Shown here one piece after another: positions 7,481 to 64,000 of a stretch of 64,000 nucleotides of DNA; positions within the stretch are counted from its first letter, which is position 1, and each line of letters opens with the position of its first letter. The translations under genes and the position numbers were made by a program. The stretch covers positions 19,211,146 through 19,275,145 of the forward strand of contig OY720348.1 of NCBI GenBank assembly GCA_963082975.1, read 5' to 3'. The notes beneath the pieces were generated by a model that saw only the letters and a program-made list of their open reading frames with translations, searched no databases and was not told where the DNA came from. The stretch comes from Labia minor (taxonomy: Eukaryota; Arthropoda; Insecta; Dermaptera; Spongiphoridae).

Positions 7481-7933
7481 AGAAATGAATATAGAAGTAA
7501 TGGAATAATTTTATAGAATTAATGATTGTAGAGGTGATTCATTCTCTGGATAGAGATATAAACTTCCAAGATGATTTGATAAAATTCACCCAGAATTGAA
7601 GCTGTCTGAATAAAACATCTCAGACAGAATAAAATATTATTATTACAAAATGGAGAAATACTTCTAATAATAATAATAATAATAATAATTTCTGTAGAGA
7701 GCATCTCCTCAATTAATCTCAAAAGCAATATTAGAGTTTTAGGACTACCCGATGGTCGAAAAAGAGAGAAGAGAAGATGCTATAAAAATTATATGATGAT
7801 TGTGGGTGAAGGTGAATTACTTTTCTACATCGTCTATGTTTAATTATAAATACAGGACAAGGTGATGGCTCTCAAAAGAAATAATGGAAAAAAAGATAAT
7901 AATAATATATACATGATTATTCATTAAAAAATA

Positions 7934-8377
7934 AGCTGGAGTGTCTCCACTCGACTATCTCGCAAATTTGATTGGATTAATTAACATATATTATATTTAA
8001 ATTAAATTTAATTAATTATAAATTAAAATTAATAAATAATGTTTATTAAATCAGCGCATGTTTGGCTCTTTGTTGATGGCACCATGTCACGTGTTGGCGC
8101 GTGATTTGCAGTGTTAAAAAATTAATTCTGATACTTTCAGCGATTCAATCAAGCTGAAATTCTATATATAGCAGTCTTATACAATTTTTAATCATGTGAT
8201 AAAACTATCAGACATATATCTTTAGTTTTACGGTCAGTTTAGAGGAAAAAATATAAAAACGTTGTAGAGGTAATGACCCTCTTCCGGTTGAGCTATATTT
8301 CTCAAAAGTATTAACTTAACTACGAATTTTGAATAATGCCCATTTACCAAATTGCATGATTCTTCTGGCGAGATAGT
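7934..8377 (-). mobile_element. R1 element, copy 1 (HINE-like, internally deleted)
   Basis: R1 defines a non-autonomous family of about 600 bp. From the low-coordinate end it shows AGCTGGAGTGTCTCCACTC (a hairpin, TGGAG/CTCCA), then GACTATCTCGC. At the far end it shows the inverted match GCGAGATAGT, part of the palindrome actatctcTGGCgagatagt. Full copies carry an (AC)n tract in between. Subterminal inverted repeats, a central microsatellite and a hairpin at one end are the features known for Helentron-associated elements (DINE-1/HINE). This copy lacks the AC tract and about 150 bp. Polarity is given with the hairpin end as 3'. Confidence 0.7.
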
Positions 8378-8787: not shown

Positions 8788-9665
8788 ATTCAATAAAAAA
8801 ATTGATAATTATGTTTTTTTTGACTTATTAAGGGATCTAAGGGATTGTATTAAATGCTTTTATTAATTTAGACTTATATTATACTATAGCTATATCTAAT
8901 TTGTTATTTAATTAAATGGAATTTTATTATTAGAAAATTCAGTAAAGAGACTTTGCCACCTCCCTACATGTACCACCAGTAAACAAATGATCCTTAAATG
9001 TTAAACGATCTTAATGATAAAGAAAACAAAACAGAAAATATCAAATTTTCTCCGTTCTACTTTCATTTATTCATATATGCTATATGTCGTTTTGCTTGTT
9101 AGCTAGATGAATATTGTCAATAAAAGTGAAATTTATGTTTCTTCCCAAAAATTCGATATTTCAACGAAAATAAAGGGTGAAAGAATGCCTTGAATCTAAA
9201 CATCAATTTACAGAAATTGATCTTTGTTTATCTGTCCACACTAGAGCAAAAATTATAGATGCTATCACGATGAAATTTTATATTTATTATAGATTGGTTG
9301 TGATTTATAGGATATTATAGAAATATTCATTCATTCAAATTAACCAACCAGAAGTGTTAGATTACGACTTTATATTGTAAATTAATATTTTTATAATATT
9401 GATTTTTTATGAAATGAAGCCTTAATTATTTAAATTATTAATTAAATCTTTTTTTAAATTTAAATTAATAAAGTTACTAAATTATTAATATATAATAATT
9501 ATTAATTAATAATCAAAAAATTAAACAACACAGATAGAATTTACTATTTCTTATACCTATTAGAGTTGGATAAATTTTCAAATAAAAAATTTTACATTTA
9601 ACATTTGATATATTTATTTTTGAAAGAGAATTACAAATTATTTATTTATATGTTATTAAAAAAAA
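8719..9665. other. Intron 1, TA microsatellite and unassigned DNA
   Basis: A (TA)n run of about 44 bp occupies 8741-8784. Around 9225-9290, tttatctgtcc followed by cgatgaaatttt resembles the core shared by R1 and R2, possibly a decayed relative. No gene. Confidence 0.45.
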
Positions 9666-10258
9666 TCTGGAGTGTCTCCACCCGACTATCTCGCAATTTT
9701 GAATTGGATTAATTAACATATATTATATTTAAATTAAATTTAATTAATTAAATTAGAAATTAAAATTAAAAAATAATATTTATTAAACCAGCGCGTGTTT
9801 TGCTCTTTGTTGATGACACGTCACATGCTGGCGCGTGATTTGCAGTGTTAAAAAATTAATTCGGATACTTTCAGCGATTCAATCAACCTGAAATTCTATA
9901 TATAGCAGTTTTATACAATTTTTAATCATGTGAAAAACTATCAAACATATATCTTTATTTTTACGGTCAGTTTATATGAAAAAAAAAATGAAAACGTGGT
10001 AGATAATGGTCCTCTTCCAAATGAGCTACATTTCGCAAAAGTGGACAGAAAAATACAAATTTTAAATAATACCCGTGTACCAAATTTCATTATTCTAGTT
10101 CAAACCGTTTTTGCATAATCTTTTCTACATACACACATACACAGTCATTTTTCTCAAACTTAGTGAAAATGGCTCAGGGACCTTCAAAACGTATAAAAAC
10201 ATCAAAATCTCGACATCGAAAATTTTCGTGATCGCAATACTATTTCTGGCGAGATAGT
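9666..10258 (-). mobile_element. R1 element, copy 2
   Basis: Runs from tctggagtgtctccacccg to tttctggcgagatagt. It keeps the glimpse of a core (gtaccaaatttcattattc), a short AC tract (about 10129-10142) and the far-end palindrome with one change. An open frame at 9930-10118 is incidental. Confidence 0.72.
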
Positions 10259-10964
10259 AAAAACAACATAAATATTTCATTTTTTTTTTTATATTATTTG
10301 ATTTTTATAAATATTATTACATGCACGTAGGAGCATAAAATTCAATTCAATTCTCAATATTCATTATATGAAATTTATATTTTTCTTTAGTCCTCCCACC
10401 AGATTATCAATATAATTGACGTTTTTTCATAAAAAATACACTTATGATTAAATCAATTCTCTACAAAGAAATCAATAAATATTTCATTTGACAATTACAA
10501 TATTCTTAAACAAAAAAATATATATATAAATATTGTGAAGTGAAAAAAACACAAATTTATTTAATATTTTCCTTTTCATGGTATATAAATATCGTATAAG
10601 CACAAACCAGATTTTTTTTTTCTTTAAATATTATATTATATTATATCGTCTACCTCTAAACTGAATTATTGTTATCTGATATTTTTTTTTAATGTTGGTT
10701 GTTTGTTAATATAAATATATTTAATAATATTTGTGGATAAATTCCACTCGTTGCCTCCTTTAATAAAATAAAACATGAACATTACTTTCACCGAATGCGT
10801 AGTAATCCGTCAGCAGGTATATATTACTCTTACTCACCCAATGTAAATCAGTTAAACAAAATAATTCAAAAATGAATAATATGAAATATTTTAATACTTA
10901 TATCTAATATTATGAATTATTATTAAAATAATAGAAAAAGTTTATTAAAAACTATTATGAAATT
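10259..10964. other. Intron 1, A+T-rich, nothing recognised
   Basis: A+T-rich sequence between two R1 copies, with no ORF or repeat end that I can identify. Confidence 0.5.
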
Positions 10965-11539
10965 AGCTGGAGTGTCTCCACTCGACTATCTCGCAATTTG
11001 AATTGGATTAAATAATATAATATATTATATTTAAATTAAATTTAATTATTTATAAATTATAAATTATAATAAATAAATAATATTTATTAAACCAGCGCAT
11101 GTTTGGCTCTTTGTTGATGGCACCAAGTCACGTGTTGGCGCGTGAGATTTGCAGTCTTAAAAAATTAATTCTGGTACTTTCAGTGATTCAATCAAGCTGA
11201 AATTCTATATATAGCAGTTTTACACAATGATGAAAAAAATTATCAGACATATATCTTTATTTTTAGGAAAAAAATGAAAACGTGGTAGGTAATGACCCTC
11301 TTGAGATACATTTCTCAAAAGTTGATAGAAAACTACGAATTTTGAATAATGCCCGTACACCAAATTTCATTATTCTAGCTCAAACCGTTTTTACATAATC
11401 TTGTCTACATACATACACATATACACACATACACACAAACACAGACAATTTTTTCAACCTTAGTGAAAATGATTCAGGAACCTTAAAAGCGTATAAAAAC
11501 ATCAAAATTTCAACATCGAAAATTTTCTGGCGAGATAGT
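10965..11539 (-). mobile_element. R1 element, copy 3
   Basis: Starts agctggagtgtctccactc at 10965 and ends ctggcgagatagt at 11539. The AC tract is longer here (about 11407-11445). The far end has lost the outer half of its palindrome (ttttctggcgagatagt). Confidence 0.73.
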
Positions 11540-11745: not shown

Positions 11746-11788
11746 ATATAACTTAAAATCATTTAAAAATATCTAAATATAAAAAAAT

Positions 11789-12371
11789 TTGGGGTGTCTC
11801 CACTTGACTATCTCGCAATTTGAATTAGTTAAATAACATATATTATATTTAAATTAAATTTAATTAATTAAATTATAAATTAAAATTAATAAATAATATT
11901 TATGAAACCAGCGCGTATTTGGCTCTTTGTTGATGGGACCATATCAGGTGCTGGCGCGTGATTTGCAGTGTTACAAAATTAATTCTGATACTTTCAGCGA
12001 TTCAATCAAGCTGAAATTCTATATATGGCAGTTTCATACAATCATGTGACAAATTATCAAACATATATCTTTATTTTTACGGTCAGTTTATAGGAAAAAA
12101 AATGAAAACGTGGTAGGTAATGGTCCTCTTCCAAATGAGCTACATTTCGCAAAAGTGGATAGAAAAATACGAATTTTAAATAATGCCCGTGTACCAAATT
12201 TCATTATTCTAGCTCAAACCGTTTTTGCATAATCTTGTCTACATACACACACACACACAGTCATTTTGCTCATCTTTAGTGAAAATGACTCAATGACCTT
12301 CAAAACGTATAATAACATCAAAATTTCGATATCGAAAATTTTCGTGATCACAATACTATTTCTGGCGAGAA
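11789..12371 (-). mobile_element. R1 element, copy 4
   Basis: From ggggtgtctccacttgac to ctggcgagaa. The hairpin end is decayed (GGGG for TGGAG), and the far-end GATAGT is replaced, so this is an older copy. Body and AC tract (about 12244-12260) are intact. Confidence 0.7.
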
Positions 12372-12734
12372 AATTCATATTTTGTCCTGACCCATAAAAT
12401 TTTCGACATTATCCCTATTTATGAAATTTGAGATTTCCTTGATTATAAATTGCTTGCCAAGTCAGTCATCCCTATCTAATATTTTTATATAATTAAATTA
12501 GAACTTGTGTTCTTCGTCAATGGTATTATCTGCATTTCATTTTTTTGAAGAATATTTAATTTTTCTTGAACCTTTTTCATAATTTTCGTAAAGGATTTAA
12601 CAAATTGCTATTTACACTGTATAAAAAAATATAAAATTGTTTTTATTTAATTTCTCGTTTTTATACTTAATGTTATATTTAATTTTCAAATTAATATACA
12701 ATACTAATATATATAGTTAATTTTATCTTCTTAA

Positions 12735-12975: not shown

Positions 12976-13540
12976 ATTTTATAGATATTATGTATTTCAC
13001 GAATATATGTATTAAAACTTTTGTGGTTTTTATAATTATTAAAGGGATTTTTATCTCAAGCTTGAGTCGAGCAAGCGAACGGTACTTGATACGACTGCAG
13101 AATAAACAGTCAAATAAATAAATAAATTATACAATTATGTTGTGTTTTAATATAAATTCCTTTAATATTATATACTTATATGAAATTTTTATTGAAAATT
13201 TTAATGAGAGCTTAAAATAAAATTTTCCAAAATTGTGAACTTATAAGAAATGTAATTAAAATTTAGGATTAGGTACTATTTGTTAAAATATTTAAAAGGA
13301 TAATTAGATTATTACCATGATCATTTTTGTTAATTATTTTTTTTACTAATTTGAAAAAATGTTTAAGTCATATATATATATATAGTGTTAAACCGTCTTG
13401 TTCCATTAATTCTCGTTATATTTAATGTAATTATAATTGTATATAATTTAACATAATGAAAAAAGGGGGATATTCAAATATTTAAAATGTACCATCAACC
13501 CATTTTACAGATTAATTATGCAACCTACCATAGCATCATT
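12976..13540. other. Intron 1, nothing recognised
   Basis: A+T-rich intron sequence with a short TA run near 13371-13383. No gene or element end identified. Confidence 0.5.
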
Positions 13541-14016
13541 TTTACCGACCGACGATAGGAAGGGAAGGTATTGTTTTCACACCAAATTTCACATCTGGAG
13601 ATTTTTACATATCTCCACGAATCATCCATTTTGTTAACAGAAAAAAGTATTTTTTTGTCTGTCCGTCTGTGTGTCCGTTTAGACATGTACAGCTTGAACG
13701 GCTCAACGGATTTTGATAAAATTTGGTATATTTACTTAAAGCATCAGTACGATCAATTCATCAACTTTTGTTGTATATCCGGAAACCGGAAATGGTAGTA
13801 TTACCGATCAACCATAGGAAGGGAAGGGTTATTTTCACACCAAATTTCACATGAGGAGATTTTTTACTTATCTCCACAAATCATGCACTTTGTATTGGTT
13901 TTATCCTCGTGAAATATCATCTTCGTTAGTTTGTGGTAGTTTACAAATTATTAATTTTATATTCATTGTCGGAAATTTTTTATTACATTAAACTAACTGG
14001 TGAAATAAAAAAAAAC

Positions 14017-14051
<35 letters not shown>

Positions 14052-14107
14052 ATGTTGGTTTTAATTATTTTTAATTCGTCGGTCGGTTCTGTGCCTGGTC
14101 ACAGTCT
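13541..14107 (+). mobile_element. R2 element (HINE-like), long copy
   Basis: R2 is a second family with the R1 plan. Here it starts at ACCGACCGAC (13544) and passes a GTCTGTCCGTCTG tract (13661-13675). It then runs through the core ggctcaacggattttgat aaatttggta and the box accggaaac. It ends with the inverted match GTCGGTCGGT (14079-14088) and a hairpin (CTGTG/CACAG, seen as tgtgcctggtcaca). A TA run at 14017-14050 was gained inside. The open frame 13571-13798 is incidental. The family was judged from 34828-35479. Confidence 0.7.
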
Positions 14108-14412
14108 TCCTATAACTTCAAAATGTCCTCGAATTACCCCCCGGGTTTGTATAGTCCTTTTTTTACCAACATGTTGTACTCAACAACGTATAGATATTAA
14201 ATGAAAAGCATAGAAGGTGAATAGAACTTTTTCCAAATCTCATCTTGCTCGTGTGATTGGTTATTCATATTTTATGAACAATCTCTAAACCACTTGTAGA
14301 ATATTCGAAATCCTCTTTCATTTTTAATCTAAATTCACATGAAATTAATATTTAAATTCTATCATCTGTTCGAAGGCGTCTTTTAATAATTCATAAACTG
14401 TTATTATTTTAG

Positions 14413-24862: not shown

Positions 24863-25797
24863 GTAAGTGATAAATTAGTTGCTTTCATTGTCTCCTTTTG
24901 ATATGAACTGATTACAGAATTTTTTTTTATATAACTCAGCTACCCTTTTATAATATTAATTGAAGAAATATAAAAAAAAAAATTTTCTCTTTGTAATGGG
25001 ATTATTATTAATTTTCTTAATAATTTGAAATTATTATTTTGTTTTAAGAGTGTCACATATATTAATATAATATTATTATTATAAATTCATTTATCTCATT
25101 TCTTATGCAAAACCAAATGTTAAATTTCGGGGTCACTTTTTTAAGCTTAAAAATTCATTAAAATTACATCAAATAAGTTAAAATACAATTTTTCTTGAAT
25201 CTTTATAGTTCTCCACTCCTCCTTCGATACTCTTCCACTAATATATTGGAGTCTAAAATAATTTTTAGAAAATAAATTAATAATTTGAAATTGAACCTAT
25301 ATACGTGTTGTAATGGTTTGAAATGAATAAAAAAACTTTACTAATTTGGTATGCCAATAGGGAAAATATATAAAGCATATTTTTAATAAATCATTTTTCT
25401 AAATAAATTTGTCAACATTTCAAGTGTTCTGAAGCATTTAATTTAATTCTCTACACAAAATTTGATGCGAATTCTTTGATGTCGAATATTCCAAAACACT
25501 TCTAACTTTTATACCTTTCACAAACGAACAAAGAATAGTTAATAGGTAAAACAGTGAATATATGCTTGTATGAATTGCATTGGATGAACTTAAAAAAAAA
25601 ACAAAGATCGAATTGAGGTATTCCAATAAATACCAAAAGTCACCTTTGATCCAATAACATATACATATCAATATATAACATTAGGTTTGGTCAAATTAAC
25701 TCCAAATGGTAAGAAATTATTTAGATAACCCCAAAAACGATATTTATTTGACATAAAGTGAATTTTAAATTCCTCCAGTACCAATATGAAAAATAAG
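24863..25797. other. Intron 4, proximal part, nothing recognised
   Basis: A+T-rich intron sequence; the minus-strand open frame at 25438-25671 has no motif or codon-use support. Confidence 0.45.
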
Positions 25798-25870
25798 CTG
25801 TGGCCAGACACAGAACCGACCTACGATTTGAAATAAATTAATTTCCAGCTACCTTTAGCTACATTTGTAA
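25798..25870 (-). repeat. R2 fragment, hairpin end
   Basis: Preserves the terminal aaaataagctgtggccagac, giving the CTGTG/CACAG hairpin, then gaaccgacctacgattt and aattaatttccagctac. It stops after about 70 bp. Useful because it shows the ATAAGCTG end that R2 shares with R1. Confidence 0.7.
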
Positions 25871-25956
25871 GATGATCCAAACTATGGAGCACTTATAATG
25901 ACCCACGATGACTGTGAATTGTATTATAAGTAAATTATGGGCGCCAAGCTTTGGGT

Positions 25957-26484
25957 GTATAGATTAGAGGGACCTCTCACCTCGCAGAATTTGATGAAAC
26001 TTCGCCAGCTGATTCTTTGATTAATTCTAAGAAACTTTTTCTTGGGTAAACTTCTAGTTTTCGAGATAAAAAGGATTAAAGATTGGATATAAATTAGATA
26101 GTTATGAATGTCGAAATGTACAGCCATTAAGTAATTTTTATTGACTAATTCACTAATTATTCACATATTCACCAATTTTTGGTTTTTTCTGTTCGGTTTG
26201 GATATAGGAAAATTATTTAATTAATTAATTTTTTAATTTTTCTATATACAATCCGAACTGAAAAAACCGAAAATTAGTCGCGCCCTCTGCTGGTCAGACT
26301 GATAAGACATGGTAGCTAAATGGGATATCAATGTATTTATATCCAATGTTTAATCCTTTTTATCTCGAAAACTAGAAGTTTACCCAAGAATTGCCTAAGG
26401 AAAAAGTTTCTTAGAATTAATCAAAGAATCAACTGGCGAAGTTTCATCAAATTCTGCGAGGTGAGAGGTCCCTTTAATCTATAC
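25957..26484. repeat. Foldback element F2
   Basis: Arms of about 250 bp: gtatagattagagggacctc at 25957 mirrors gaggtccctttaatctatac ending 26484, and both arms carry ctagttttcgagataaaaag or its complement. The centre again has ggtttggatata facing an inverted copy around TTAATTAATTAA (about 26217-26230). The arms match better than in F1, so this copy is younger or better preserved. Confidence 0.78.
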
Positions 26485-28185
26485 CTCTTTGGGTAAATTG
26501 TCTTTATCCCAGAATACAAAAGGGTGTTAAAAAAATTAAGGGAAAGGAAAAAAAAAATTAATGTTCACACTAAAATACACTTTAATTAAAAATAAAAATT
26601 TAAACAAATTAAATATAAGAAATTTAAATAACAACATAAGATAATGTAATTCACTATTATTACAGGGAGTAACAGGAATAGTTATCACAGGGGGTGTGAT
26701 GATTTATAAAAAAAAATAATTATATCACGGGACGTGATAGTTACAAGCTCATATCAGGATGATATTTCTTTTTCAACTGCCAATTCTCAACTCACTAAAT
26801 TATAAAAACTTGAAGGGAGATTATCCCTCCCCTTAGTCGAAATATTATATCTATATACATTTATTACATTTTAACATTAATGGGACAAAATAACTTTGTT
26901 AATATAATAAGAAAAATAGAAAAACAAAATAAAATGAATAATAAAAAAAAAAAGCAAAATGTGCAGCATCGTACACGTGGCGGAAGTGAAACTTCTTACA
27001 ATCTAGAGAATAAGATAAATTTTAGTTGAGAGTGTGAGTGATTGAGAAATAGAGAAAAATAAACCACACTGCCCTCTCCTACAAAGAATATTTCCAAGCA
27101 CATACAATTAACAAGTCCACCCTTGCAATTTTCAATTGAATGACTCTCGCCAAGTGTTTTACCTGCTAAATGCTAAGAACCTTAATTTTAAGAGGTTGAT
27201 TGATACATTGCAAATTATGTCGAATCATAAACTTACTATTTCAATTGTAATGTTCACATGTGGAAGTGTGAACGTGACAAACATAACTTACTTATTCTTA
27301 ATTGTAATGGACACATGTGGGAGCTTGACATTATAAGCCTTTCTGGGAAATTGCAAAATGTGTTTATTTTTTTATATAAATAATGATCATGCAAATTACA
27401 CTAAAAATTAAAAAATTATTAGCTATAATAAACTATTATTGGCTATAAATTAATTAAAATTAATTAAATTAATAAAAATAATTTAAAGATACAACTCGTT
27501 GAGAAATGAACTTATAATTAACATTTCCTTTAAAACTGTTTAAAACCCCAGAGTGGACGCTGACAATTTGGGTTTTTCCTGGTAAGACTGCCCCCCCCCT
27601 GGTTTTTCCCAATAACAAAGTGAAAGAAAATTCCCTTATGTTGCCTCCCCTTCCGACCCCCTAAGAGGGGTTATTTTAAAGGAACAATCGGAAAATAATT
27701 TTAAATGAATGAATAAATGAAAATTCAAATTTTATATATAGTTTTTTATATATGTTTATTTATTCACAAAAAATTAATTAAATTGTAATTTAAATTCTTA
27801 TAGTTTTATTAAATAAATCATTTTTAGTTATAATTTTATATAAGCATTTTTTAATTGAACCTATTCAATCTTGTCATTCCCTAATCAGCATACGCGGTTT
27901 CAATAACCCTTTTAATTATTCTAAATTCAATCTTTAATTAAATCTAATTTAACACACAACAATTCCGTCTCATTATTGTAATACAAAGTTAGAAATATTA
28001 AGTTAATATAATTAATATTATTTATTTATTAATACCAATTAATAATATTAATTACTTATAAATAATTCATAATAATAATAAATTGTGATACCAACTTATA
28101 GGAATATTAAAATAATATAATTATTATTTTACATATATATGAATATAATATAAATATTTTTAATTTTATTTTAAGAATAGATATA
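26485..28185. other. Intron 4, mostly unassigned
   Basis: Holds a short tandem duplication at about 27235-27330 (attgtaatg then cacatgtgg repeated about 65 bp apart), a C-rich patch near 27580-27670, and long A+T-rich stretches. At 26980-27055, ggaagtgaaacttctt and ttgagagtgtgagtg resemble the inverted complement of 28530-28590, so this and the next feature may be the two ends of one element of about 1.6 kb. Confidence 0.4.
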
Positions 28186-32768: not shown

Positions 32769-33696
32769 TATATACGATTAAATGATTTCAAAAATATGAA
32801 TTGATGATATAAATTTTGTAAAAATATAAAATAAAATCATGAATTTTGTAAAAATATAAAATAAAATCATTAAAAAATCTATATTTTTTAAAATATGTAC
32901 CTATATAACTTAAAAAAAGGTTAATTAATAAATAGTAAATGTTAATTAATATATAGTATTATTTTAATTTAGAAAAAATAATATCAATTTTTATATTTTT
33001 GAAATCATTTAATATATACTATATATATACATCATAATATGAAACAATATAATTGTTGAAATATATAAATATAATACATTGAAATTGAACTTCGTCGATA
33101 GAAAAATTTATTGGATTGTCTGTAGCAGACACAATCCTACTGGAACGGAAGAGGGGGAGGGGGGTTGTTGTAACTCAACAGGCCTCTTAAACTTACTATA
33201 TATATAGGTATAGGTATAGGTATTGGTAAATCGAAAAATCGAGCCTTTTATTTTATTTCTTTTTTCATTACCCATATACTTCAATTGGCAACACTAAATA
33301 ATTTAATTATAGTATATAGATTTTACATCTCCATATGAATTAATATAATCTCTAAAAAAGGGTTAAGAAGAGGTATTATATATTAGAGATAACAAAATTC
33401 ATAGTTTAAATTTTTCAAAAAATCAGTTATTCATCAGTTATTTTAATTTCAACTTTTAAAATACATTATTATATAATAAGATATATATATATATTAAAAT
33501 TTTTATAGTCAGGGACCTTTATATATAATTTTTCGAAATCTCCATTAAAACCCATAAAGGTAATTTTCAGGTTAATAAATCAGAAACAATAAGTAAAGTA
33601 GCTACCGATTTTTACTTCTTTTCACTCGAATTAATATATATACGTTTATTATTTTATTTTCTATAAAGAAAATGATATTAAGTCTATTATAAAAAA
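32769..33696. other. Intron 4, unassigned
   Basis: Contains aattttgtaaaaatataaaa repeated in tandem near 32812-32870 and again resembling 29340-29400, an ATAGGT microsatellite near 33205-33230, and a small palindrome at 33115-33139 (ggattgt...acaatcc). No gene. Confidence 0.45.
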
Positions 33697-34251
33697 TCTG
33701 GAGTGTCTCCACTCGAATATCTCGCAAATTTGAATGGGATTAAATAACATATATTATATTTAAATTAAATTTAATTAATTAAATTATAAATTAAAATTAA
33801 TAAATAATATTTGTTGATGACATCAATCACCTGCTGGCGCATGATTTGCAGTGTTAAAAAATTAATTCTGATACTTTCAGCGATTCAATCAACCTGAAAT
33901 TCTATATATAGCAGTTTTATACAATTTTTAATCATGTGCAAAACTATCAAACATAGCATTATGTATTTATATAGTCAGGAAAAAAATGAAAACGTGGTAG
34001 GTAATGGCCCTCTTCCGAATGAGCTCTACATTTCTCAAAAGTTGAAAGAAAACTACGAATTTTGAATAATGCCTTGTACCAAATTTCATTATTCTAGCTC
34101 AAACGTTTTTGTGTAATCTTGTCTACATACACACACACATACATTTTTCTCAACCTTAGTAAAAATGAATCAGGGACATTCAAAACGTATAAAAACATCA
34201 AAATCCTCGTCGAAAATTTTCGTTATCGCAATACTATCTATGGCGAGATGT
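33697..34251 (-). mobile_element. R1 element, copy 5
   Basis: From tctggagtgtctccactcg to tatggcgagatgt. It has lost about 35 bp after the A+T-rich left part (the cagcgcgtgttt block) and its far palindrome is mutated. AC tract short. Confidence 0.72.
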
Positions 34252-34827
34252 AAAAAATTTTAAATTTTACATACGCAGTTAGGTATGTCTGATTTGCTTA
34301 TTAAGAACTGTTTTTCCTTCGAGTCCCAATCGACCCCCATTCGACCCCTTGAGTCAGATTGACCTCTACTGTTGTTATTCATGAGTTAAATGTCTATATA
34401 TTTTTGGCGATCCCTGATCTAGATAATAATACCTAGATGGACATTTAACTTAATTGTATTTATAGTGTTTCATATCAAATTCTGCATGATTAAAAATTAG
34501 AATTATATATATATATCTATATATAGATATATAGATATATATTCAACGTAGTACAAGATTTGGTGTTTGAAAAGAATATATCCGAATAAGAATAAATTGC
34601 TATTATTTTGGCAATTTAACCCAAGAAAAGGAAAACAAAAAGAAAGATTGCTTCTAGAATATTATAGAATATTATATTTCTTGGACGATTATTGATTTAA
34701 TATTCCGTGAAGAGTTCAGATGGAAAATAATTCAATTTTGTTTATATTTTGAAATTAATTTTTTTTATAAAGAAAATAAATTGCATAAAATTTGTTCAAT
34801 TTATTAAAATTATTATTAAAGAAAAAT
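34252..34827. other. Intron 4, unassigned
   Basis: A C-rich stretch near 34320-34375 and an A/T palindrome near 34505-34545; nothing else. Confidence 0.45.
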
Positions 34828-35479
34828 AAGTTGACCTGTGGCCAGGTCCGAACCGACCGACTGTTTGAAATAAATTAATTTCCAGCTACAGAAACAATTT
34901 CAAATAATTTTCATATATCTATTAATGTAATAAAAAACAGATAAGGATACATAAATAATAAATATAAACATTTTTAATTTTATTTTATTTATAATATATA
35001 TGCAAGACCAGGCTGTGACGTCATGAATGGCTGGATGACGTCATATAATTTTAAATCAAGAAAAAACTAATAAATATGATTTTTCTCGAGGATAAAACCA
35101 ATACAAAGTGCATGATTCGTGGTGATATATAAAAAAATCTCCTTTGGTGTGAAAATAACCCTTTCCTTCCTATCGTCGATCGCTAATACTACCACTTCCG
35201 GTTTCCGGAATTGCACCAAAAGTTGATCAATTCATCTCAATGGTGCATTAAGTAAATATACCAAATTTCATCAAAATCGGTTGAGCCGTTCAGGCTGTAC
35301 ACATCTATACGGACGGACGGACAGACGGACAGACGGACAGGCGGACGGACAGACATCATGCTAAAAATACTTTTTTCTGTTTAGAAAATGCATGATTCGT
35401 GGAGATATGTAAAAATCTCCACATGTGAAATTTGGTGTGAAAACAATACCTCCCTTACTATCGTCGGTCGGTAAAAATT
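34828..35479 (-). mobile_element. R2 element, full-length reference copy
   Basis: The 652 bp run from aaataagttgacctgtggcc (hairpin GACCTG/CAGGTC at 34832-34847) through ACCGACCGAC (inverted repeat) and a pair of TGACGTCAT palindromes (about 35016 and 35036). Next come ttccggtttccgg, the core accaaatttcatcaaaatcg and a (GGAC/AGAC)n tract (35312-35356), ending gtcggtcggtaaaaa. The 10-bp inverted repeats ACCGACCGAC/GTCGGTCGGT, the central GACGGACAGAC tract and the single terminal hairpin give the same plan as DINE-1/HINE elements. No ORF. Confidence 0.78.
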
Positions 35480-36130
35480 GAAATATATAGGGTAGAGTAG
35501 TTTACTTTCGCAAATAGTACACGTCGGGACAGGCCTTTTTTTGCCCTAAATGTTAACTCTTAGTTCTTGGTGATCTAGAGAAAGTGCAGCATAATTTAAT
35601 TGTCAGATTGGTTTCGATGGAATTGACCAAGCTGCTTAGAATATATTAAAATTGTTATTTTTAGAACAATTTCGATAATTTGTAGGTAAAGTGTATTTTT
35701 ATTGAAAATATTTTGAAATAAAAGGTACTATAACGAAACTTAACGTCTTTTCTTTAAAACTAAAGCATAATAACGGAGTGAGTACAAAACCATCCAACCT
35801 ATCAACCCAAAATCCCGATAAAAATCCTTGGTCACACAGACTAAGACCCAGAATCCCAAAAAAAAAAATATTCTTACCTAAATAATCTCTTGAAAATGGC
35901 GCCAAAATGGGTGCCGAAACGTCGAGAAAACAATCTCATAAAAATACGTGATTATATCCCTGATAAAAATCTGATAGTAATAATAACAATAACATTCAAG
36001 GAAACCTAAACCAACATATATATATATATATATAATATAATATTTATAAAAAATAAGATTGAATTCAATATATAAGAAGAAGAAGAAAAATACGAGATGT
36101 GCAAATATAGTTGAATAATCTTTGATTTTT
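35480..36130. other. Intron 4, unassigned with a Penelope-like end
   Basis: Slightly less A+T-rich from 35480 to 35660 with no motif. The hammerhead-like motif at 35885-35925 is described separately. TA run near 36017-36034. Confidence 0.45.
35885..35925 (+). ncRNA. Degenerate hammerhead-like motif (Penelope-like 3' region)
   Basis: TTGAAAAT, then GGCGCC - aaaatg - GGTGCC (a perfect 6-bp stem II with one wobble), then GAAACGTCGAG. Layout and GAAAC box match the hammerhead ribozymes known in Penelope-like retroelements, but the CTGANGA box is altered at two positions. I regard it as a remnant. Confidence 0.35.
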
Positions 36131-36241
36131 ACTATCTCGCCAGAGATAGTATTGCGATCACGAAAATTTTCGATGTTGAGATTTTGATGTTTTTATACGT
36201 TTTGAAGGTTCCTGAATCATTTTCACTAAGGTTGAGAAAAA

Positions 36242-36279
<38 letters not shown>

Positions 36280-36751
36280 TATGTGTGTATGTATGTAGGC
36301 AAGATTACGCAAAAACGCTTTGAGCTAGAATGATGAAATTTGGTACATGGACATTATTCAAAATTCATAGTTTTCTATCAACTTTTGAGAAATGTAGCTC
36401 AACCGGAAGAGGGTCATTACCTACAACGTTTTGATTTTTTTTCCTCTAAAGTGACCGTAAAAATAAAGATATATGTTTGATAATTTTTCACATGATTAAT
36501 AATTGTATAAAACTGCTATATATAGAATTTCAGCTTGATTGATTCGCTGAAATTACCAGAATTAATTTTTTAACACTGCAAATCTCACGCGCCAACACGT
36601 GACGTGGTGCCATCAACAAAAAGCCAAACATGCGCTGGTTTAATATTTATTATTTATAATTTATAATTAATTAAATTTAATTTAAATATAATATATTATG
36701 TTATTTAATCCAATTCAAATTGCGAGATAGTCGAGTGGAGGCACTCCAGCT
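36131..36751 (+). mobile_element. R1 element, copy 6, well preserved
   Basis: Complete from actatctcgccagagatagt to gtggaggcactccagct. The (TG)n tract at 36245-36300 is the longest in the family. Apart from the microsatellite and short A+T indels I count about five differences from copy 8 at 60053-60664, so the two separated recently. Confidence 0.8.
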
Positions 36752-36779
36752 AATTTTAAATAAGACCACACTACGATGA

Positions 36780-39018: not shown

Positions 39019-40341
39019 CGAGGTAGGGTCAAAAAGTTCGCGGAATGGTCGCTTATAGTTAAGTATTTCTTAGCTGAAAGGGAAATTTTTGTTTGTGAGG
39101 TTGGCATAACTGGTAGTGAATGTGCTTTTGAGGTTAGCAGGCAGTTGTAGTTGGTTCCGTGCGTTAGGTGTTTAATATTGTAGATCGTAGTTTCTTTCTT
39201 TCGTCGGATTGTGCAATGTCGTCATTAGAGCAGCGTGGCAATATTAAATTCTGTGTGTTGCTGGAGAAATCACCCTCGGAGACTCTTGAGATGCTAAAAA
39301 AAGCATACGGAAATTCTGCGATGAAGAAAACAGCAGTTTACGAGTGGCATAAGCGTTTTCGCGACGGTCGCACAACAATTGATGATGACGTTCGGACTGG
39401 GCGGCCTTCCACTTCCACTACAGACGACAATGTTGAGCGCGTTCGACAAATTGTGCGTGCGGACAGATGAACAACCATCAATAATATTGCCTCTGAAGTT
39501 GGTATTTCACATGGGAGTGTTCACAGCATTCTTCATAATGACTTGAACATGCATCGTGTTTGCTTGCACTTTGTTCCAAAAATGTTATCCCCTGAGCAAA
39601 AGGAAATGAGAGTGACCGTGTCCAGGGATTTGATTGAAATGGCTGATGCAGATGACAGCTTCCTGCGCAAAATTGTTACAGGTGATGAGACATGGTGCTT
39701 TCTTTACGACCCTCAGACAAAACGGCAGTCCGCTGAATGGAAGTCAAAAACTTCACCAAGAAAACAAAAATTTCGCTTGGACAGAAGCCGGGGTAAGGTG
39801 ATGTTGGAGGTGTTTTTTGATTACCGTGGAGTGTGATTCATTATGAATTTATTCCTGAAGGGAGAACAGTAAATAAAGAATTGTACACAGAGATCTTAAA
39901 ACGGCTACGAGATGCAATTCGACGAAAACGACCTGAAAAATGGGCAGAGAATGACTGGTGTTTGTTGCACGACAATGCCCCAGCACATCGATCCCTAATG
40001 GTGAAACAATACCTTGCCAAGCATAATGTTACCACTCTGGAACATCCTCCATATTCTCCCGATCTCGCACCACCAGATTTCTACCTGCTTCCAAGGTTAA
40101 AAATGGCATTGAAGGGACATCGTTTTGCTGATTCGTCAGAGGTGATTGAAAATGCGACGGAGCGGCTGAAGGAACTTTCAAAAAACGGCTTTCAAGAGTG
40201 TTTCCAACAATTATATGAACGGTGGAATAAATGTGTAGATGCAGGAGGAGAGTATTTTGAAGGGAAATAATGTAAGAATGTTATAAATATTTTTAATAAA
40301 TTTTTAATAACCAATTCCGCGAACTTTTTGACCCTACCTCG
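39019..40341 (+). mobile_element. Mariner element, almost full length (1,323 bp)
   Basis: Perfect 28-bp terminal inverted repeats (starting CGAGGTAGGGTCAAAAAG) at 39019-39046 and 40314-40341 are flanked by TA on both sides. The length is normal for mariner. It inserted in a TA microsatellite inside hAT element D. The perfect ends and only two lesions in the gene suggest a young copy. Confidence 0.92.
39216..40270 (+). pseudogene. Mariner transposase, two lesions
   Basis: The ATG at 39216 opens MSSLEQRGNIKFC and an N-terminal helix-turn-helix (TAVYEWHKRFRDGR, then DDDVRTGRPSTS). The catalytic D,D34D triad is complete: TGDETW (about 39682), HDNAPAH (about 39970) and PPDFYLLP (about 40070). The C-terminus ends AGGEYFEGK before TAA at 40268-40270. 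Lesions are an in-frame TGA at 39468-39470 (one change from CGA) and a 2-bp TG insertion at about 39835, after which reading resumes as VIHYEFIPEG. The HPPYSPDLAPPD box is intact. Expected length is about 350 residues. Confidence 0.9.
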
Positions 40342-45941: not shown

Positions 45942-47140
45942 GTATTTTGTAGAAAAAAAAATATTCAAATGTAAATAATAGAATTATGAATAAATAAGAA
46001 AGGCTATAAATAAATAAATATACCAACTAGATAATAATATTAGTATATTTTGTAAATTGATAGAAAGTAAAAATAAATGAATATTGAAAATCACTGTTGG
46101 AAATCTTCTATCATCTTATAATCATATTTTTACTGTCCAACGTGTAAAAAAGTAAATAAGCTGGAGTGTCTCCACTCGACTATCTCGCAAGATGAATTGG
46201 ATTAAATAATATATATTATATTTAAATTAAATTATAAATTAAAATTAATAAATAATATTTTTTAAAACAGAGCGTGTTCGGCTCTTTGTTGATGGCACCA
46301 CGTCACGTGCTGGAGCGTGATTGCCAGTCAACGTGTTAAAAAATTAATTCCGGTACTTTCCGCGATTCAATCAAGCTGAAAATCTATATATAGCAGTTTT
46401 ATACAATTTTTAATCATGTGAAAAACTATCAAATATATATCTTTATTTTTACGGTGAGTTTAGAAGAAAAAAAGTGAAAACGTGGTAGGTAATGGTACTC
46501 TTCCAAATGAGCTACATTTCGCAAAAGTGGATAGAAATTACGAATTTTAAATAATGCCCGTGTACAAAATTTCATTATTCTAGCTCAAACCGTTTTTGCG
46601 TAATCTTGTCTACCTACATATACACATACATTTTTCTCAACCTTAGTGAATATGACTCAGGGACCTTCAAAACGTATAAAAACATCAAAATCTCGACATC
46701 GAAAATTTTCGTGATCGCAATACTATCTCTGGCGAGATAGTAAAAATGTAAATAAAAGTATATTCATTTAATGAGCAGCAAATGAAATCGTTATGCATTT
46801 TTTTATTTTATTTGTTTTAAAATTTTTTTTATATTTTAATTAATACTTGAAATAAATTAATCAATTTAATATAATTGATCAAATCTTATATAAAATATAC
46901 TTTTATTTACATTTTTTTCTGTTTTACACGTTGGACAGTAAAAATATGATTCTAAGACGATAGAAGATTTTTTCAACAGTGATTTTCAATATTCATTTAT
47001 TTATACTTTCTATCAATTTACGAAATATACTAATATTATTGTCTAGTAGGTATATTTATTTATTTATTTATTTTATAGTCTTTCTTATTTATTCATGATT
47101 CTATTATTTACATTTGAATATTTTTTTTTCTACAAAATAC
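45942..47140. mobile_element. Long inverted-repeat element, interrupted by R1 copy 7
   Basis: The left arm starts gtattttgtagaaaaa (45942) and the right arm ends ctacaaaatac (47140). The arms match through tttttactgtccaacgtg and on to aatgtaaataaaagtatatt, about 235 bp with around a dozen differences. The left arm is split at 46158 by the R1 copy. Remaining spacer is about 130 bp of A+T. No ORF. The family is not obvious. Confidence 0.72.
46159..46741 (-). mobile_element. R1 element, copy 7, nested
   Basis: From agctggagtgtctccactcg (preceded by AT A) to ctctggcgagatagt, with the far-end palindrome actatctctggcgagatagt perfect. It interrupts the left arm of the long inverted repeat; the right arm shows what the arm looked like before insertion. 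Confidence 0.8.
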
Positions 47141-51857: not shown

Positions 51858-52757
51858 GCCGACTCATATTATAATAAAATAGAAACAATAATTATTCCTA
51901 TAATCTATTTAATTAACTATTTACTTATTGTAAAAAAAAAAAAAAAAAAAAAAAACAAAAATAAAAATATACAAATATATACATTTATATTTATAAAAGG
52001 TGTGTACAAGGGAAGGATATGGGGGGAGGTGAGAGGATAAATTTTCTTCACACAGCCCTGGCTCTTTGGTGTGACTGACCTTAGGAGATAAAGCCTTGGA
52101 AAAATTAAAGATAATTTAAAATTAAAAATAAATAAAATCCTTAACTAGGATTTTGGATAAGGCGATTTAAGGATAAAAATCTAAAATAAGAAAGTATTTA
52201 ACTAACAATCCTATTATTTAGCAAGAAAATTATAGAAAAAATACATAAAATTATATAAAATTTTTATAAAAACACAACAAAATTGTCAAAATTTGACAAT
52301 TCAGTTTGTTTAATTTAAGTAAATATACACATATACATGCGTAGTGAATCAGATCTCACCAAAATTGGCAGACTTGAAACAAAAAAAAAGCTAGAAGGTC
52401 CCACAAATCCACTTCGGGAGCAGGAATCCGATTTAACACATCCAATCTATTCGAGAGCTACTCACTGAATGAATAATTATAATATAAATAAACACACATT
52501 TATTCACATAAAACATATTTGTTTGATAATAAAAATATAAGACTGGGGAGGGGTGTCATTTTAACCTTTAGCACATCATGCACTGGAAGATCATTAAAGG
52601 ATGAATGCACTCTAACCCTTTAAACTTTTCTAATTATATGCAATATCATTCATAAAAAATTTAAATATATATAGCAATATAAATAAAATAAATATAATAT
52701 ATAATTATAATATTTATGAATTTATTTTTTAGAATTTATAAATTGAAATCTTACCAA

Positions 52758-53290
52758 TTTTTACCGACCGTCGATAGTAAGGGAGGTATTGTTTTCACTC
52801 CAAATTTCGCATGTGGAGATTTTTACATATTTCCACGAATCATCCATTTTGTAAGCAGAAAAAAGTATTTTTAGCATGATGTCCGTCCGTCTGTCCGTCC
52901 GACCGACGATAGTGGTGAATGGCTCAACGGATTTTGATAAAATTTGGTATATTTACTTAATGCATCAGTATGATGAATTGATAAACTTTTGGTGTATATC
53001 CGGAAACCGGAAGTGGTAGTATTACCGATCAACGATAGGAAGGGAAGGGTTATTTTCACACCAAATTTCACATGAGGAGATTTTTTACATATCTCCACGA
53101 ATCATGCACTTTGTTAACAGAAAAAAGTATTTTTTTTTGTCTGTCCGTCTGTGTGTCCGTTTAGACATGTACAGCTTGAACGGCTCAACGGAAGCCTTTG
53201 AAAAAATCATCTTTATTAGTTTTTTCTTATATTAAAATAGGAAATTTAAATGACGTCAGCAACTACGTCAGACAGCACTTTCTTAAATAC
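52758..53290 (+). mobile_element. R2 element, right part replaced by R3-like sequence
   Basis: Begins tttttaccgaccgtcgat (52758) and runs through two GTCCGTC tracts, the core and accggaaac box, then a second block of cacatgaggagat and gtctgtccgtctg. From about 53195 it continues into the module attagttttttctt and tgacgtcagc, and no R2 hairpin follows. The repeated core indicates an internal duplication. Confidence 0.65.
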
Positions 53291-53475
53291 AAAATATTAT
53301 AAATATAAATAAAATCAAATTACGAAATATACATTATGTTATATCCACAGGCCATACTTTTCTGTCTTTCAGTGCATTAATACGTATATTTAAGGTCAGT
53401 ATGTTTTATGACTATTATTTTTTTAATTTATGGTCTTTTAAATTATTTGAAATGCGACTCGGTGAACCAGGTACT
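53180..53475 (-). repeat. R3 repeat, copy a
   Basis: Read on the minus strand it starts agtacctggttcaccgagtc (53475) and ends in the module with tgacgta/tgacgtca and aatttaaat...aactaataaagatgattt. It is followed by a TA microsatellite at 53475-53493 on the R3 start side. Joined to R2 without a visible boundary. Confidence 0.55.
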
Positions 53476-54639: not shown

Positions 54640-55575
54640 TAAACCGCTCTAAGGATTTTTTGAAATTCACACCATAGATAATAATTATAAAGAAAAATCG
54701 ACTGTATTGTTTTCAGCTTCGAGAAAAATCAAATTTATTAGTATTTTCTTTATTTAAAATAGAAAATTTAAATGTCTGCAATTACGTCATCCATATTGAA
54801 ATTTACCTCTCGCAATTCTTTTTTAATTGATATTATATTAATATTTTGTTATATTTGAAATATTTTAAAATTTTTTATTTAATATCGAAATATAATTAAA
54901 AATATTTATTTTAATAATATTTTTGAATAGAATTACGAAATATATATTCCGCCTCCAAAAAAAAAATATTCATGAAGTTAGCAACATATAACACATATGA
55001 ACAATTATAAAGGAAGGGTTTTAAAATAAATTGTTGAATAAATTTGATCTAATAATATTAAATAAATTATATTATAATAATTAAAATGTTTTTAGATTAA
55101 ATTATAAATAATATAAATGATATTTGATTATTATAAATAAAAAGAAAAAATATAACTTCCTGTCTTAATCCTTCTTTCTTAATTAAATTATCGACAAGTA
55201 CAGATGTCAATATAATTTCAGAATGTATATTATTATCAGTAGTAATCCTTGGTCGAAACAGTCTATAAGCTATTGTTACTTTGTAAAATATAAAACTGAA
55301 GCCATCTAATTATAACAACATATATATATATATAATATAGGATCAAATATTATATCAAGTAAATTCAATTTTCATTTTGAAATGAAAATCAAGTTATTTT
55401 AATTAATTTTTATTATTTTAGGAAACAAATATTTAATGAGTCATTTTTAAAATACCCATTTAACAATTTTAATAAATAATTAAAAAATTGTAAAATTTTT
55501 AAAGTTTATAATAATAAATTCTACAAATTTGTTAAAGGGTCGAGCGATAGCTTGGTGTTCCAGGAACTTATCTAT
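54640..55575 (-). repeat. R3 repeat, copy b
   Basis: On the minus strand: gttcctggaacaccaagcta, tcgctcgaccc, a long A+T-rich middle, caatatggatgacgtaatt, the module taataaatttgatttttctc, and a tail tggtgtgaatttcaaaaaat. Longest copy (about 930 bp). Confidence 0.6.
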
Positions 55576-55699
55576 TTACATTAGGTATACATTTTCTTTC
55601 TATGGTTATGATAGAAAGATAAATATTATAGAATATTATTTTAATTAATAGTATATGTATATCTTAAAATAAAATATTAGTGGTTGGATATTGTTTATC

Positions 55700-58719: not shown

Positions 58720-60052
58720 TATATAAATTTAATTATTTATTTTTTTTATTCCTTAAATAAATTTCAAACAGATTTAGTTTTACAAATTAATGAATTAAAT
58801 GAAATATTTTATTCCTACATATTCGTTGAACCAGGCATCCATCCGAGTAACAAACTTTCTCTAATGCTTTAGATAACTACTGTTTATTTTAATTTAATTA
58901 AAATAACATATTTGAATTAAATAAATAATCGACTAATTACTGCAAAGGGTTTATAAAGTTGATGTAATATAGAAAATGAGAATTTCAATATCATCAGAGG
59001 AGAAAGCAAAGATGGAGGAAGATCTTAAAAGTGAATAACAAAGATACAATTGAAAAAATAGATAAGCAAAAGCAAGTAACTATTTCAGTATACTTAAAGA
59101 TTTAGAATATAAATAATGGATCTTGGGATAAACTTCGATTGGTTGAATTGAGAAGAGAATGGTAGGATGAGTAGGTAAATAAGCTATATAATAATATTTC
59201 TTTAACAAGAATGTCTTGTTTCAACAACAACTCCTGTGTTTAGGTTTAGTTTAAACTGAAATTGTAGTCTCTCTCTTAATCCACAATGATCTACCACAAC
59301 GTTATTAATTTTAATGTATTGGTATAATTAAATATTTCCCCTATATAGAAATCTTTTTCTATTGAAAATAGATAATAAATTTAAAATTTATATTTTTTAT
59401 TTATTTATATACATATATTCGAGTATTATTTTTTTTCTATACTATCTATATAATTGAATTTGCTGAGTCTTCTAATTCACAACGGCCCCGGGCGCATTAA
59501 AGTAAAGAAGGCAGCTTTTATATTACAATATTATAAAAATTTTAATATTCATAATAATGTTTGTATTGAAGTTAAAAAAAAAATTATTTTAAATTAATAT
59601 TAAATATTTATTTTTGAATTATAAATATATTTTTTTTTTTTATGAGTAAAGGGAAGAAATTTAATAAATCTTGGCCTTGGGTGCAAGTTTTCCTTGGTCG
59701 ATCGTGTCACTAATATATTTAGAGTATTTTTTTGTTTTTTTTTTGTTTAATTGGATTTCGTTCGAATTTTCGTCGAATTGGTCAATCACATATTCCAATA
59801 CTAGATTAAATAAAATTGGTCATCCTTTTCGAATTAAAAATGCATCCTTCTTTTACTTACTTCAAGATAAATTAAATTCTACCAACTTTTTTTTAATCTT
59901 CCACTAAATACAAAATTTGTAATAATTTTTTTTAGATCTTTTTTTTGATTTGTTAAAATCTACACATAATTATGTACAAAATTATTTGTTTTAGAGAAAA
60001 TATTTTGATCTAAGGTCGTAAGGTCATATGGTCGTAATTTTTACTATCTCGC
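58720..60052. other. Intron 4, unassigned
   Basis: A+T-rich with no element end recognised. The open frames at 58663-58872 and 59671-59907 have no motif. Confidence 0.45.
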
Positions 60053-60153
60053 CAGAGATAGTATTGCGATCACGAAAATTTTCGATGTTGAGATTTTGAT
60101 GTTTTTATACTTTTTGAAGGTTCCTGAATCATTTTCACTAAGGTTGAGAAAAA

Positions 60154-60186
<33 letters not shown>

Positions 60187-60664
60187 CTGTGTGTGTGTAT
60201 GTAGGCAAGATTACGCAAAAACGGTTTGAGCTAGAATGATGAAATTTGGTACATGGACATTATTCAAAATTCATAGTTTTCTATCAACTTTTGAGAAATG
60301 TAGCTCAACCGGAAGAGGGTCATTACCTACAACGTTTTGATTTTTTTTCCTCTAAAGTGACCGTAAAAATAAAGATATATGTTTGATAATTTTTCACATG
60401 ATTAATAATTGTATAAAACTGCTATATATAGAATTTCAACTTGATTGATTCGCTGAAATTACCAGAATTAATTTTTTAACACTGCAAATCTCACGCGCCA
60501 ACACGTGACGTGGTGCCATCAACAAAAAGCCAAACATGCGCTGGTTTAATATTTATTATTTATTATTTATAATTTATAATTAATTAAATTTAATTTAAAT
60601 ATAATATATTATGTTATTTAATCCAATTCAAATTGCGAGATAGTCGAGTGGAGACACTCCAGCT
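60053..60664 (+). mobile_element. R1 element, copy 8, well preserved
   Basis: Complete from actatctcgccagagatagt to gtggagacactccagct, with a (TG)n tract at 60157-60199. Closest relative of copy 6; both stand in the same orientation, opposite to copies 1-5 and 7. Confidence 0.82.
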
Positions 60665-60909
60665 AATTTTATAAAATAACAATCAAAGGTTTTTTTTTAA
60701 AATGTCAAAAGAGAGATTCCCCTGTAATTATTTCAGTCGGTTTTGTATATTTTTTTAACAGCTGGATAATAACCACCTTTTGTAATTCTTTAGAGATAAT
60801 TTCTTTATGTCAAATTGAATAAAAATAATTTGTGGTTATATTCTATGTATTAAAAGTTTTCCACTATATTTAATTAATTCTGTAAAATTTCCATTTGTTC
60901 TTGATTTTA

Positions 60910-63589: not shown

Positions 63590-63656
63590 AAAATCAAAAC
63601 GTTGTAGGTAATGACCCTCTTCCGGTTGATCTACATTTTTCAAAAGTTAATAAAAA
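63590..63656 (-). repeat. R1 fragment abutting R2
   Basis: aaaacgttgtaggtaatgac and cctcttccggttga are the R1 middle. The fragment ends exactly where an R2 copy begins (ataagttgacctg at 63658). Confidence 0.65.
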
Positions 63657-64000
63657 ATAAGTTGACCTGTGGCCAGGTCCGAACCGACCGACGGTTTGAA
63701 ATAAATTAATTTCCAGCTACAGAAACAATTTCAAATAATTTTAATATATCTATTAATGTAATAAAAAACAGAAATGGATATAACATAAATATTTTTAATT
63801 TTATTTTATTTATAATATATAGCTGAAGTAGCCGGCGTTACCCGAGGCTGTGACGTCATGAAGGGCTGGGTGACGTCATATAATTTTAAATTAAGAAAAA
63901 CATAATGAAGATGATTTTTCCCGAGGATAAAATCAATACATTCGTGGTGATATGTAAAAAAATCTCCTTATGTGAAATTTGGTGCGAAAATAACCCTTCC
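63657..64000 (-). mobile_element. R2 element, cut by the window edge
   Basis: Hairpin gacctgtggccaggtc at 63663-63678, ccgaaccgaccgacgg, the two TGACGTCAT palindromes (about 63850 and 63871), the module with aatgaagatgatttttcccg, and tgaaatttggtgcgaaaata. It has a gtagccggcgttacccg block near 63826 not seen in the other copies. The core and far end lie outside the window. Confidence 0.75.

Follow-up and report, generated by a model that had tools for sequence, protein, structure and literature searches.

The window analysed here, a stretch of 64,000 nucleotides (G000:C10:19211146-19275145) with a G+C content of about 28% (about 72% AT), belongs to a genome of 604 Mb in 71 contigs. It contains copies of two repeat families, R1 and R2, whose features are listed in Table 1. 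No frame of at least 90 aa was found inside R1 or R2, save one overlapping R1 in its initial 62 bp. The window also includes a LINE at 47680-51863 (minus strand) with two stop-free open frames of 897 and 499 aa (RVT_1, Exo_endo_phos, PRE_C2HC), and three adjacent frames at 39168-40270 (plus strand) which we take to resemble a mariner-type transposase. From its G+C content and these LINE frames, the genome is taken to be eukaryotic and animal-like.

Table 1. Features of the R1 and R2 families in the window.
Feature	Position	Strand	Remark
R1 element, HINE-type, young subfamily copy	36126..36757	+	98-99% identity to L002-L008, which were picked as best R1 matches
R1 5' subterminal inverted repeat ACTATCTCGC	36131..36140	+	T5 before
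R1 5' palindrome ACTATCTC-GCCA-GAGATAGT	36131..36150	+	fold z -3.05
R1 (TG)n/(TATG)n microsatellite	36245..36297	+	
R1 core module	36317..36425	+	alignable with R2 and the 5' leader of Helentron L047
R1 3' subterminal inverted repeat GCGAGATAGT	36722..36731	+	
R1 3' hairpin GAGTG-GAGG-CACTC	36733..36746	+	then CAGCTAATTTT end
R1 copy	60038..60670	+	97-99% to the 36125 copy
R1 copy	46154..46746	-	paralogous empty site at 46894-46985
R1 copy, older	33685..34256	-	
R1 copy, older	11784..12374	-	decayed 5' end, without T-run
R1 copy, older	10960..11539	-	
R1 copy, older	9653..10263	-	
R1 copy, shortened	7928..8377	-	
R2 element, HINE-type	34825..35477	-	
R2 5' subterminal inverted repeat ACCGACCGAC	35463..35472	-	T5 before
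R2 (GTCY)n microsatellite	35309..35345	-	
R2 core module	35165..35287	-	GGCTCAACCGATTTTGATGAAATTTGGTA through to AACCGGAAGTGGTA
R2 internal stretch that partly duplicates the 5' end and leader	35102..35186	-	R2 17-109 vs 305-389, 75%
R2 3' subterminal inverted repeat GTCGGTCGGT	34852..34861	-	
R2 3' hairpin GACCTG-GCCA-CAGGTC	34833..34848	-	then AACTTATT end
R2 copy, older	13539..14116	+	decayed 3' end
R2 copy	52755..53389	+	without exact 3' repeat
R2 3' part	63647..63998	-	cut off by window end
Decayed R2-like 3' end	25788..25852	-	ATAAGCTG at 25793

In several copies, the 5' border of R1 was read as a T-run followed by ACTATCTCGCCAGAGATAGT, and the 3' border as GCGAGATAGT-C-GAGTG-GAGA-CACTC-CAGCTAATTT (or CAGCTTATTT). 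The 5' palindrome is an inverted repeat adjoining the 5' subterminal inverted repeat, and the fold of the 3' hairpin is modest (z -1.50; 15 of 200 shuffles were equally good). The two young R1 copies in the window are 99% alike and match L002-L008 at 97-99%, and the six remaining ones have 87-94% identity to the rest. The exact 20-mer of the R1 5' end gave 9,600 matches in the 604 Mb (4,772 forward and 4,828 reverse) and its reversed control gave 0. The core and R1 5' end patterns had zero exact matches in viral contigs, and bacterial and archaeal genomes had none to a 26-base R1 5' end. The R1 3' end did match viral contig L049, which resembles phage coding sequence, and this was taken as chance.

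The 5' border of R2 in several copies consists of a T-run and ACCGACCGACGATAG, and the 3' border of GTCGGTCGGTTCG-GACCTG-GCCA-CAGGTC-AACTTATT, with a similarly modest hairpin fold (z -1.85; 9 of 200 shuffles equally good). By reading, an inverted repeat adjoining the 5' subterminal repeat was not seen in the first 60 bases of R2. At 13803 and 53024 (plus strand), too, R2 copies contain a second stretch resembling the 5' end and its leader, again a partial duplicate. Of the first-look candidates in genome searches the best 40 were scored, with identities of 92-100% for R1 (40 of 1,198, including the copy in the window) and 96-100% for R2 (40 of 2,339); as scoring was confined to the closest matches, these identities are no estimate of age.

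A big imperfect inverted repeat at 25900-26500 adjoins the decayed R2-like end at 25793, and a further ATAAGCTG is located at 40613. Other repeats, which have the sequence of R2 positions 386-455 in common with R2, were noticed at 54640-54820, 55680-55860 and 63200-63300, some of them with TGACGTCA motifs, and they perhaps represent a further family.

Layout and core module common to R1 and R2

An earlier note on this DNA had described R1 and R2 as unrelated-looking families built on one HINE/Helentron-like plan. The elements of this plan were found where it had placed them, namely the 10-bp subterminal pairs (ACTATCTCGC at 36131 and GCGAGATAGT at 36722 in R1, ACCGACCGAC at 34852 and GTCGGTCGGT at 35463 in R2), a microsatellite in both families, located on the 5' side of each, and a hairpin outside one repeat only, which is on the 3' side in both. 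Subterminal inverted repeats at both ends and a hairpin near the 3' end only are features of HINEs. The 3' CTRR end of canonical Helitrons is absent, R1 and R2 ending with CTAATT/CTTATT in T-runs. The terminal octamer that had been proposed as common to the two families does occur at some R1 ends, but varies among copies: in the window, AGCTTATT was found at two of eight R1 ends, AGCTAATT at three and other letters at three, and AACTTATT at all six tabulated R2 ends. The octamer at 25793 belongs to the decayed R2-like end.

We scanned a set of 289,253 bases (the window, L002-L008 and L029-L048) for a T-run and a 10-mer followed by the reverse complement of this 10-mer, a hairpin and CT[TA]ATT. 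The scan returned 14 whole-layout elements, 7 of which sit in loci fetched for their R1 match, and none in each of three Markov-shuffled sets, which supports the HINE-like arrangement.

The core TGATGAAATTTGGTA, reported earlier as common to both families, was indeed present in exact form at 36331 and 60237 (R1, plus strand) and at 35259 (R2, minus strand). No other exact TGATGAAATTTGGTA exists in the window, so the core has one direction relative to the hairpin in R1 and R2; in the remaining copies of both families it differs by at least one base. Outside the ends and the module R1 and R2 are mostly unlike, as had been observed, but the part that can be aligned is longer than first noted and covers about 100 bp past the microsatellite (TGATGAAATTTGGTA ... 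ATCAACTTTT ... AACCGGAAG). With the first scoring this alignment reached 28.9, the highest of 2,000 shuffles being 19.6; with the other it reached 37 vs 31 (again 2,000 shuffles). The suggestion that selection has kept the ends and the core agrees with what is seen between families, but not with what is seen within one, as among the eight R1 copies in the window the core and ends were no better conserved than the neighbouring sequence.

Rep lineages and Helentrons in the genome

The genome gave 104 matches to the PF14214 profile, some loci being counted more than once, and from these we examined 20 ten-kb Rep neighbourhoods and 20 shorter ones (L009-L028). The Rep motif reads RGLPH in all ten loci L029-L038 and RGSPH in all eight loci L041-L048, and it is absent in L039 and L040. 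In the Rep tree, which included 18 of the 20 ten-kb loci, the first group split from the second with a support of 1.000. This split agrees with the published diagnostic residue, L in Helitrons and S in Helentrons, as given in the cited part of PMC4067079. Judged by their Rep sequences, L029-L038 are canonical Helitrons and L041-L048 are of the Helitron2/Helentron types. The L031 and L035 families have a hairpin plus CTAG / ACTA ends. Among the shorter loci, L015-L021 and L023 form a canonical Helitron family with eight equal or near-equal scores and frames of 1651-1655 aa (seven) and 1537 aa (one), which perhaps was recently active. In G000:C5:46739897-46792979, Rep matches of equal score follow one another at intervals of about 9.8 and 5.7 kb and look like a tandem Helitron array.

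Two Helentrons turned out to be related to the repeats of the window. L046 codes for Rep and PIF1. When the piece of its protein concerned was scanned alone, PF14529 revealed an endonuclease part (E 7.3e-5) and PF02902 an Ulp1-like part (E 8.1e-4), both under the curated cut-off; in the whole-protein scan these parts were invisible at E 0.001. When the endonuclease part of L046 was searched against PDB sequences, nothing credible as a relative came up (best E 0.72). In L047, the reading frames of which are broken, the endonuclease part matched PF03372 over the cut-off (E 2e-5) and, over 83 aa, had 42% identity with its counterpart in L046.

An initial automated search that paired subterminal repeats with hairpins near Helentron frames gave no result. 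Comparison of the ends with the Helentrons, which the earlier note had recommended, was successful for one end of one family. An R1 3' end is located on the strand of the L046 frame, 1.25 kb downstream of it, with 34 of the final 35 bp and 49 of the final 60 bp identical, and no R1 body was found ahead of the L046 terminus beyond short AT-rich matches. No Helentron with R2 ends and none with the R1 5' end was found in the 20 ten-kb and 20 shorter Rep loci; in the shorter loci there were no R1 or R2 ends at all. The L046 3' UTR together with the R1 3' end recurs at C1:44693910-44694158 with 99% identity, 4.2-4.5 kb downstream of another Rep match (C1:44698381) and on the same strand. The other 37 places scored match only the last ~50 bp, like R1 copies. 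In L050 (C1:7258088), an 84% relative of the L046 3' UTR, R1 sequence is present at the identical point and begins with ACTATCTC. Its microsatellite and core aligned with R1 with a score of 48.7 vs a maximum of 38.5 in 1,000 shuffles; this alignment starts at R1 position 134, and the R1 5' end in L050 was identified by reading. The R1-like 5' part, microsatellite and core joined to the Helentron 3' UTR lie at G000:C1:7258350-7258500.

Since R1 sequence occupies this very point of the 3' UTR in L050, the terminus of L046 may be acquired, and we consider that the R1 3' end of the L046-type Helentrons probably originated from an R1 insertion. An R1 copy would have inserted into the Helentron 3' UTR; in one lineage its central part would have been deleted, and the leftover 3' end would then have served as the Helentron terminus. 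Alternatively, L046 and its relative at C1:44693910 may not move via the R1 end, an R1 remnant being shared through segmental duplication. We regard this as the less likely course, though one of some weight, as the sequence in L050 makes an R1 insertion at this point likely and the join in L046 looks like an internal deletion of R1. However, the right flanks of L046 and C1:44693910 diverge directly after the R1 terminus, a pattern that a transposition end would give but a longer duplication would not. The possible acquisition of an end from R1 is the less usual part of our findings: if Helentrons adopt the 3' ends of their parasites, this would be a simple route for one enzyme lineage to serve several end types.

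The relation to L047 concerns the other side of the element. The layout scan revealed a third family of the same plan, R3 (L039:10-1190), with ACTTTCCCGC ends and, as in R1, an inverted repeat adjoining the 5' subterminal repeat. The R1/R3 module scored 57.0 vs a shuffle maximum of 18.2, and 79 vs 36 with the other scoring; the R2/R3 module scored 28.5 vs 20.0, and with the other scoring 36 vs a maximum of 37, one shuffle reaching the observed score (2,000 shuffles in each case). Over its first 450 bp, R3 has 96% identity with the L047 leader (1858-2302, minus strand), and the matching stretch of L047 begins 603 bp upstream of a 508-aa stop-to-stop frame with the Rep motif. The leader contains the microsatellite and the core module, and R1 aligned with it at 74-76% identity over 169 bp (E 3.8e-26, microsatellite included). 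By these matches, the leader of a Helentron that has an endonuclease part contains a HINE-type core.

A query of 551 bp across the junction of the L047 leader and Rep frame gave 39 places besides itself among the best 40 of 424 candidates that were scored. Within these best 40, all matches are contiguous beyond the leader, reach at least ~20 bases into the Rep frame and pass the point where R2 interrupts the R3 copy of L039; 31 of them end at query positions 331-373, 7 at 427-466 and 1 at 498. From this pattern we infer that the R3-like set may represent derivatives of one Helentron, R3 elements having presumably arisen by internal deletion. The 3' end of the R3/L047 Helentron was not found in the 166 bases downstream of C1:44693910.

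Insertion sites and probable mobilization of R1 and R2

The joined flanks of 20 both-ended copies (17 R1 and 3 R2) were compared with the sequence set examined. Paralogous empty sites were found for four of the 17 R1 insertions (L008, L002, L003 and window 46741) and a clean one for none of the three R2 copies. The L008 site is clean, and the other three are weaker, with drifted flanks. In L008, R1 interrupts a T-run at the end of a canonical Helitron; this run is 8 to 10 T long in the empty copies, and the filled site has 6 T on the left and 4 on the right, with no other duplication. The T counts at R1 insertion sites vary. A T-run of at least five precedes 17 of 19 R1 5'-end matches (at most one mismatch, inverted 3' ends excluded), the exceptions, L002:3290 and L006:862, being without R1 context, and all six R2 5' ends (at most one mismatch, one internal match left out). 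Among more decayed R1 ends, the one at 12374 is without a T-run and L008:2512 has only two T. For R1, these four empty sites, one of them clean, bear out the expected preference for T-rich targets, in this case T-runs, and none of them has a fixed-length target duplication.

Taken together, the data make it likely that R1 and R2 are two separate HINE families, each moved via its own end signals by a matching Helentron. The Helentron Rep/helicase/endonuclease would act on the ends of the non-coding R1 and R2 and copy them, presumably by rolling-circle steps. The signals of each family would comprise the T-run and 10-bp repeat on the 5' side, and the repeat, hairpin and CTTATT/CTAATT on the 3' side. 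An L046-type enzyme is the candidate for R1, and R2 would have a sister Helentron of its own. The module (microsatellite, core and AACCGGAAG box) would be a remnant of the 5' leader of related Helentrons. The two families appear unrelated since they have kept in common no more than the arrangement of their ends and the ~100-bp module. In this way two unlike-looking repeats, one of them in thousands of copies, can be linked to an enzyme lineage in the same genome.

The earlier note had gone further and treated R1 and R2 as parasites of the same Helentron. The common layout, similar terminal CTTATT and shared module speak for a single mobilizing element, but the subterminal repeats and hairpins of R1 and R2 differ, which in the published scheme, as laid out in the section of PMC4067079 referred to here, makes them different families, and among the 40 loci examined only R1 ends, and no R2 partner, were found on a Helentron. 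Thus the proposal found no support, and we consider it improbable that one and the same Helentron moves both. Even less credit can be given to cut-and-paste MITEs with subterminal repeats: R1 and R2 are short, non-coding and have inverted repeats, and DINE-1 itself was formerly called a MITE (PMC2374699, in the passage cited), but the one-ended hairpin, the non-terminal position of the repeats and the lack of fixed duplication at the four R1 empty sites led us to reject this explanation as very improbable. A chance or convergent match in AT-rich DNA, for which the base composition of the window and the shortness of 15 bp taken alone might speak, is hardly credible as the source of the shared core and was rejected, because the ~100-bp alignment exceeds 2,000 shuffles and R1 matches the L047 leader as given above.

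The layout of R1 and R2 is that of the HINEs and DINE-1 in the descriptions we cite (PMC4067079, PMC2374699, PMC7492417, PMC3630058, each for the sections concerned). The HINEs and Helentrons of mite, Culex and Drosophila (Thomas et al. 2014, PMC4067079) likewise have subterminal inverted repeats and a 3' palindrome, T-rich sites without duplication, a Rep/helicase/endonuclease partner and, in some, a microsatellite. According to the same sections, HINE and Helentron partners share 84-99.9% in the mite and over 95% in Culex; unlike these pairs, R1 has its 3' end in common with L046 and a 74% module in common with L047, and R2 had no partner in the loci examined. DINE-1/INE-1/mini-me, in the account excerpted from Yang and Barbash (2008, PMC2374699), resembles R1 in the inverted repeat beside the 5' subterminal repeat and R2 in its GTCY microsatellite, and has a 3' stem-loop and TT sites. 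Its repeats are of 13 bp, as opposed to 10 bp in R1 and R2, and its conserved core of 33 to 90 bp in the 5' block is comparable with ours by description and not by letters. Cg_HINE of Crassostrea gigas (PMC7492417, in part) has a left module of subterminal repeat, inverted repeat and microsatellite, a right module of subterminal repeat and palindrome, and several families that are module combinations, as here; in the portion of that paper cited it differs in its central satellite-like arrays and in that no autonomous partner could be related to it. A text search for the core 13-mer in published text gave nothing, and a search of the literature that covered few subscription papers led to no recognized description of the two families. 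R1 and R2 look like new families of HINEs, themselves a known sort of mobile DNA.

The core outside the Helentrons and its possible role

Core-like sequence of the form GGCTG(A/G)ACCGATT...GAAATT was also found in L039 (minus strand, 7465-7535), L044 (minus strand, 846-879) and L033 (7885, minus strand), with a GTCT microsatellite ahead of it in L039 and L033. In L039 it belongs to the 3' portion of a canonical Helitron and in L044 to an insert with a canonical-type 3' end, in both in the direction of the element. For this reason the 33 bp of L044 were rejected as the leader core of a Helentron, and a core-like match in the coding frame of L041-L043 was rejected as a module, as it has one mismatch and lies in frame. 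These core-bearing canonical Helitrons are resembled by Hel-2/MITE01 of Lepidoptera (Coates 2015, PMC4344730), in which, in the passages quoted, (CTGT)n follows the 5' SIR, and which differ from R1 and R2 in their TC...CTRR termini and A/T flanks.

It may be tentatively proposed, though we think it rather unlikely, that the microsatellite and core form a cis-acting part of rolling-circle transposition, with exchangeable end signals, and that a Helentron took the 3' end of its parasite R1. Such a module would be kept across Helentrons, their HINEs and canonical Helitrons, and could, for example, serve as the start of second-strand synthesis on a circular single strand, like the single-strand origin of a plasmid. 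A strict rule of core orientation is opposed by the L047/R3 leader, because this has an inverted copy of the exact core beside a diverged forward one.

With a pattern of 29 letters and at most five mismatches, the core was matched 11 times in the sequence set examined (seven R2 copies or pieces, the three sites in L039, L044 and L033, and the L047 leader) and not once in two shuffled sets. At six and seven mismatches there were 28 matches, mostly R1, vs 12 in the two shuffled sets.
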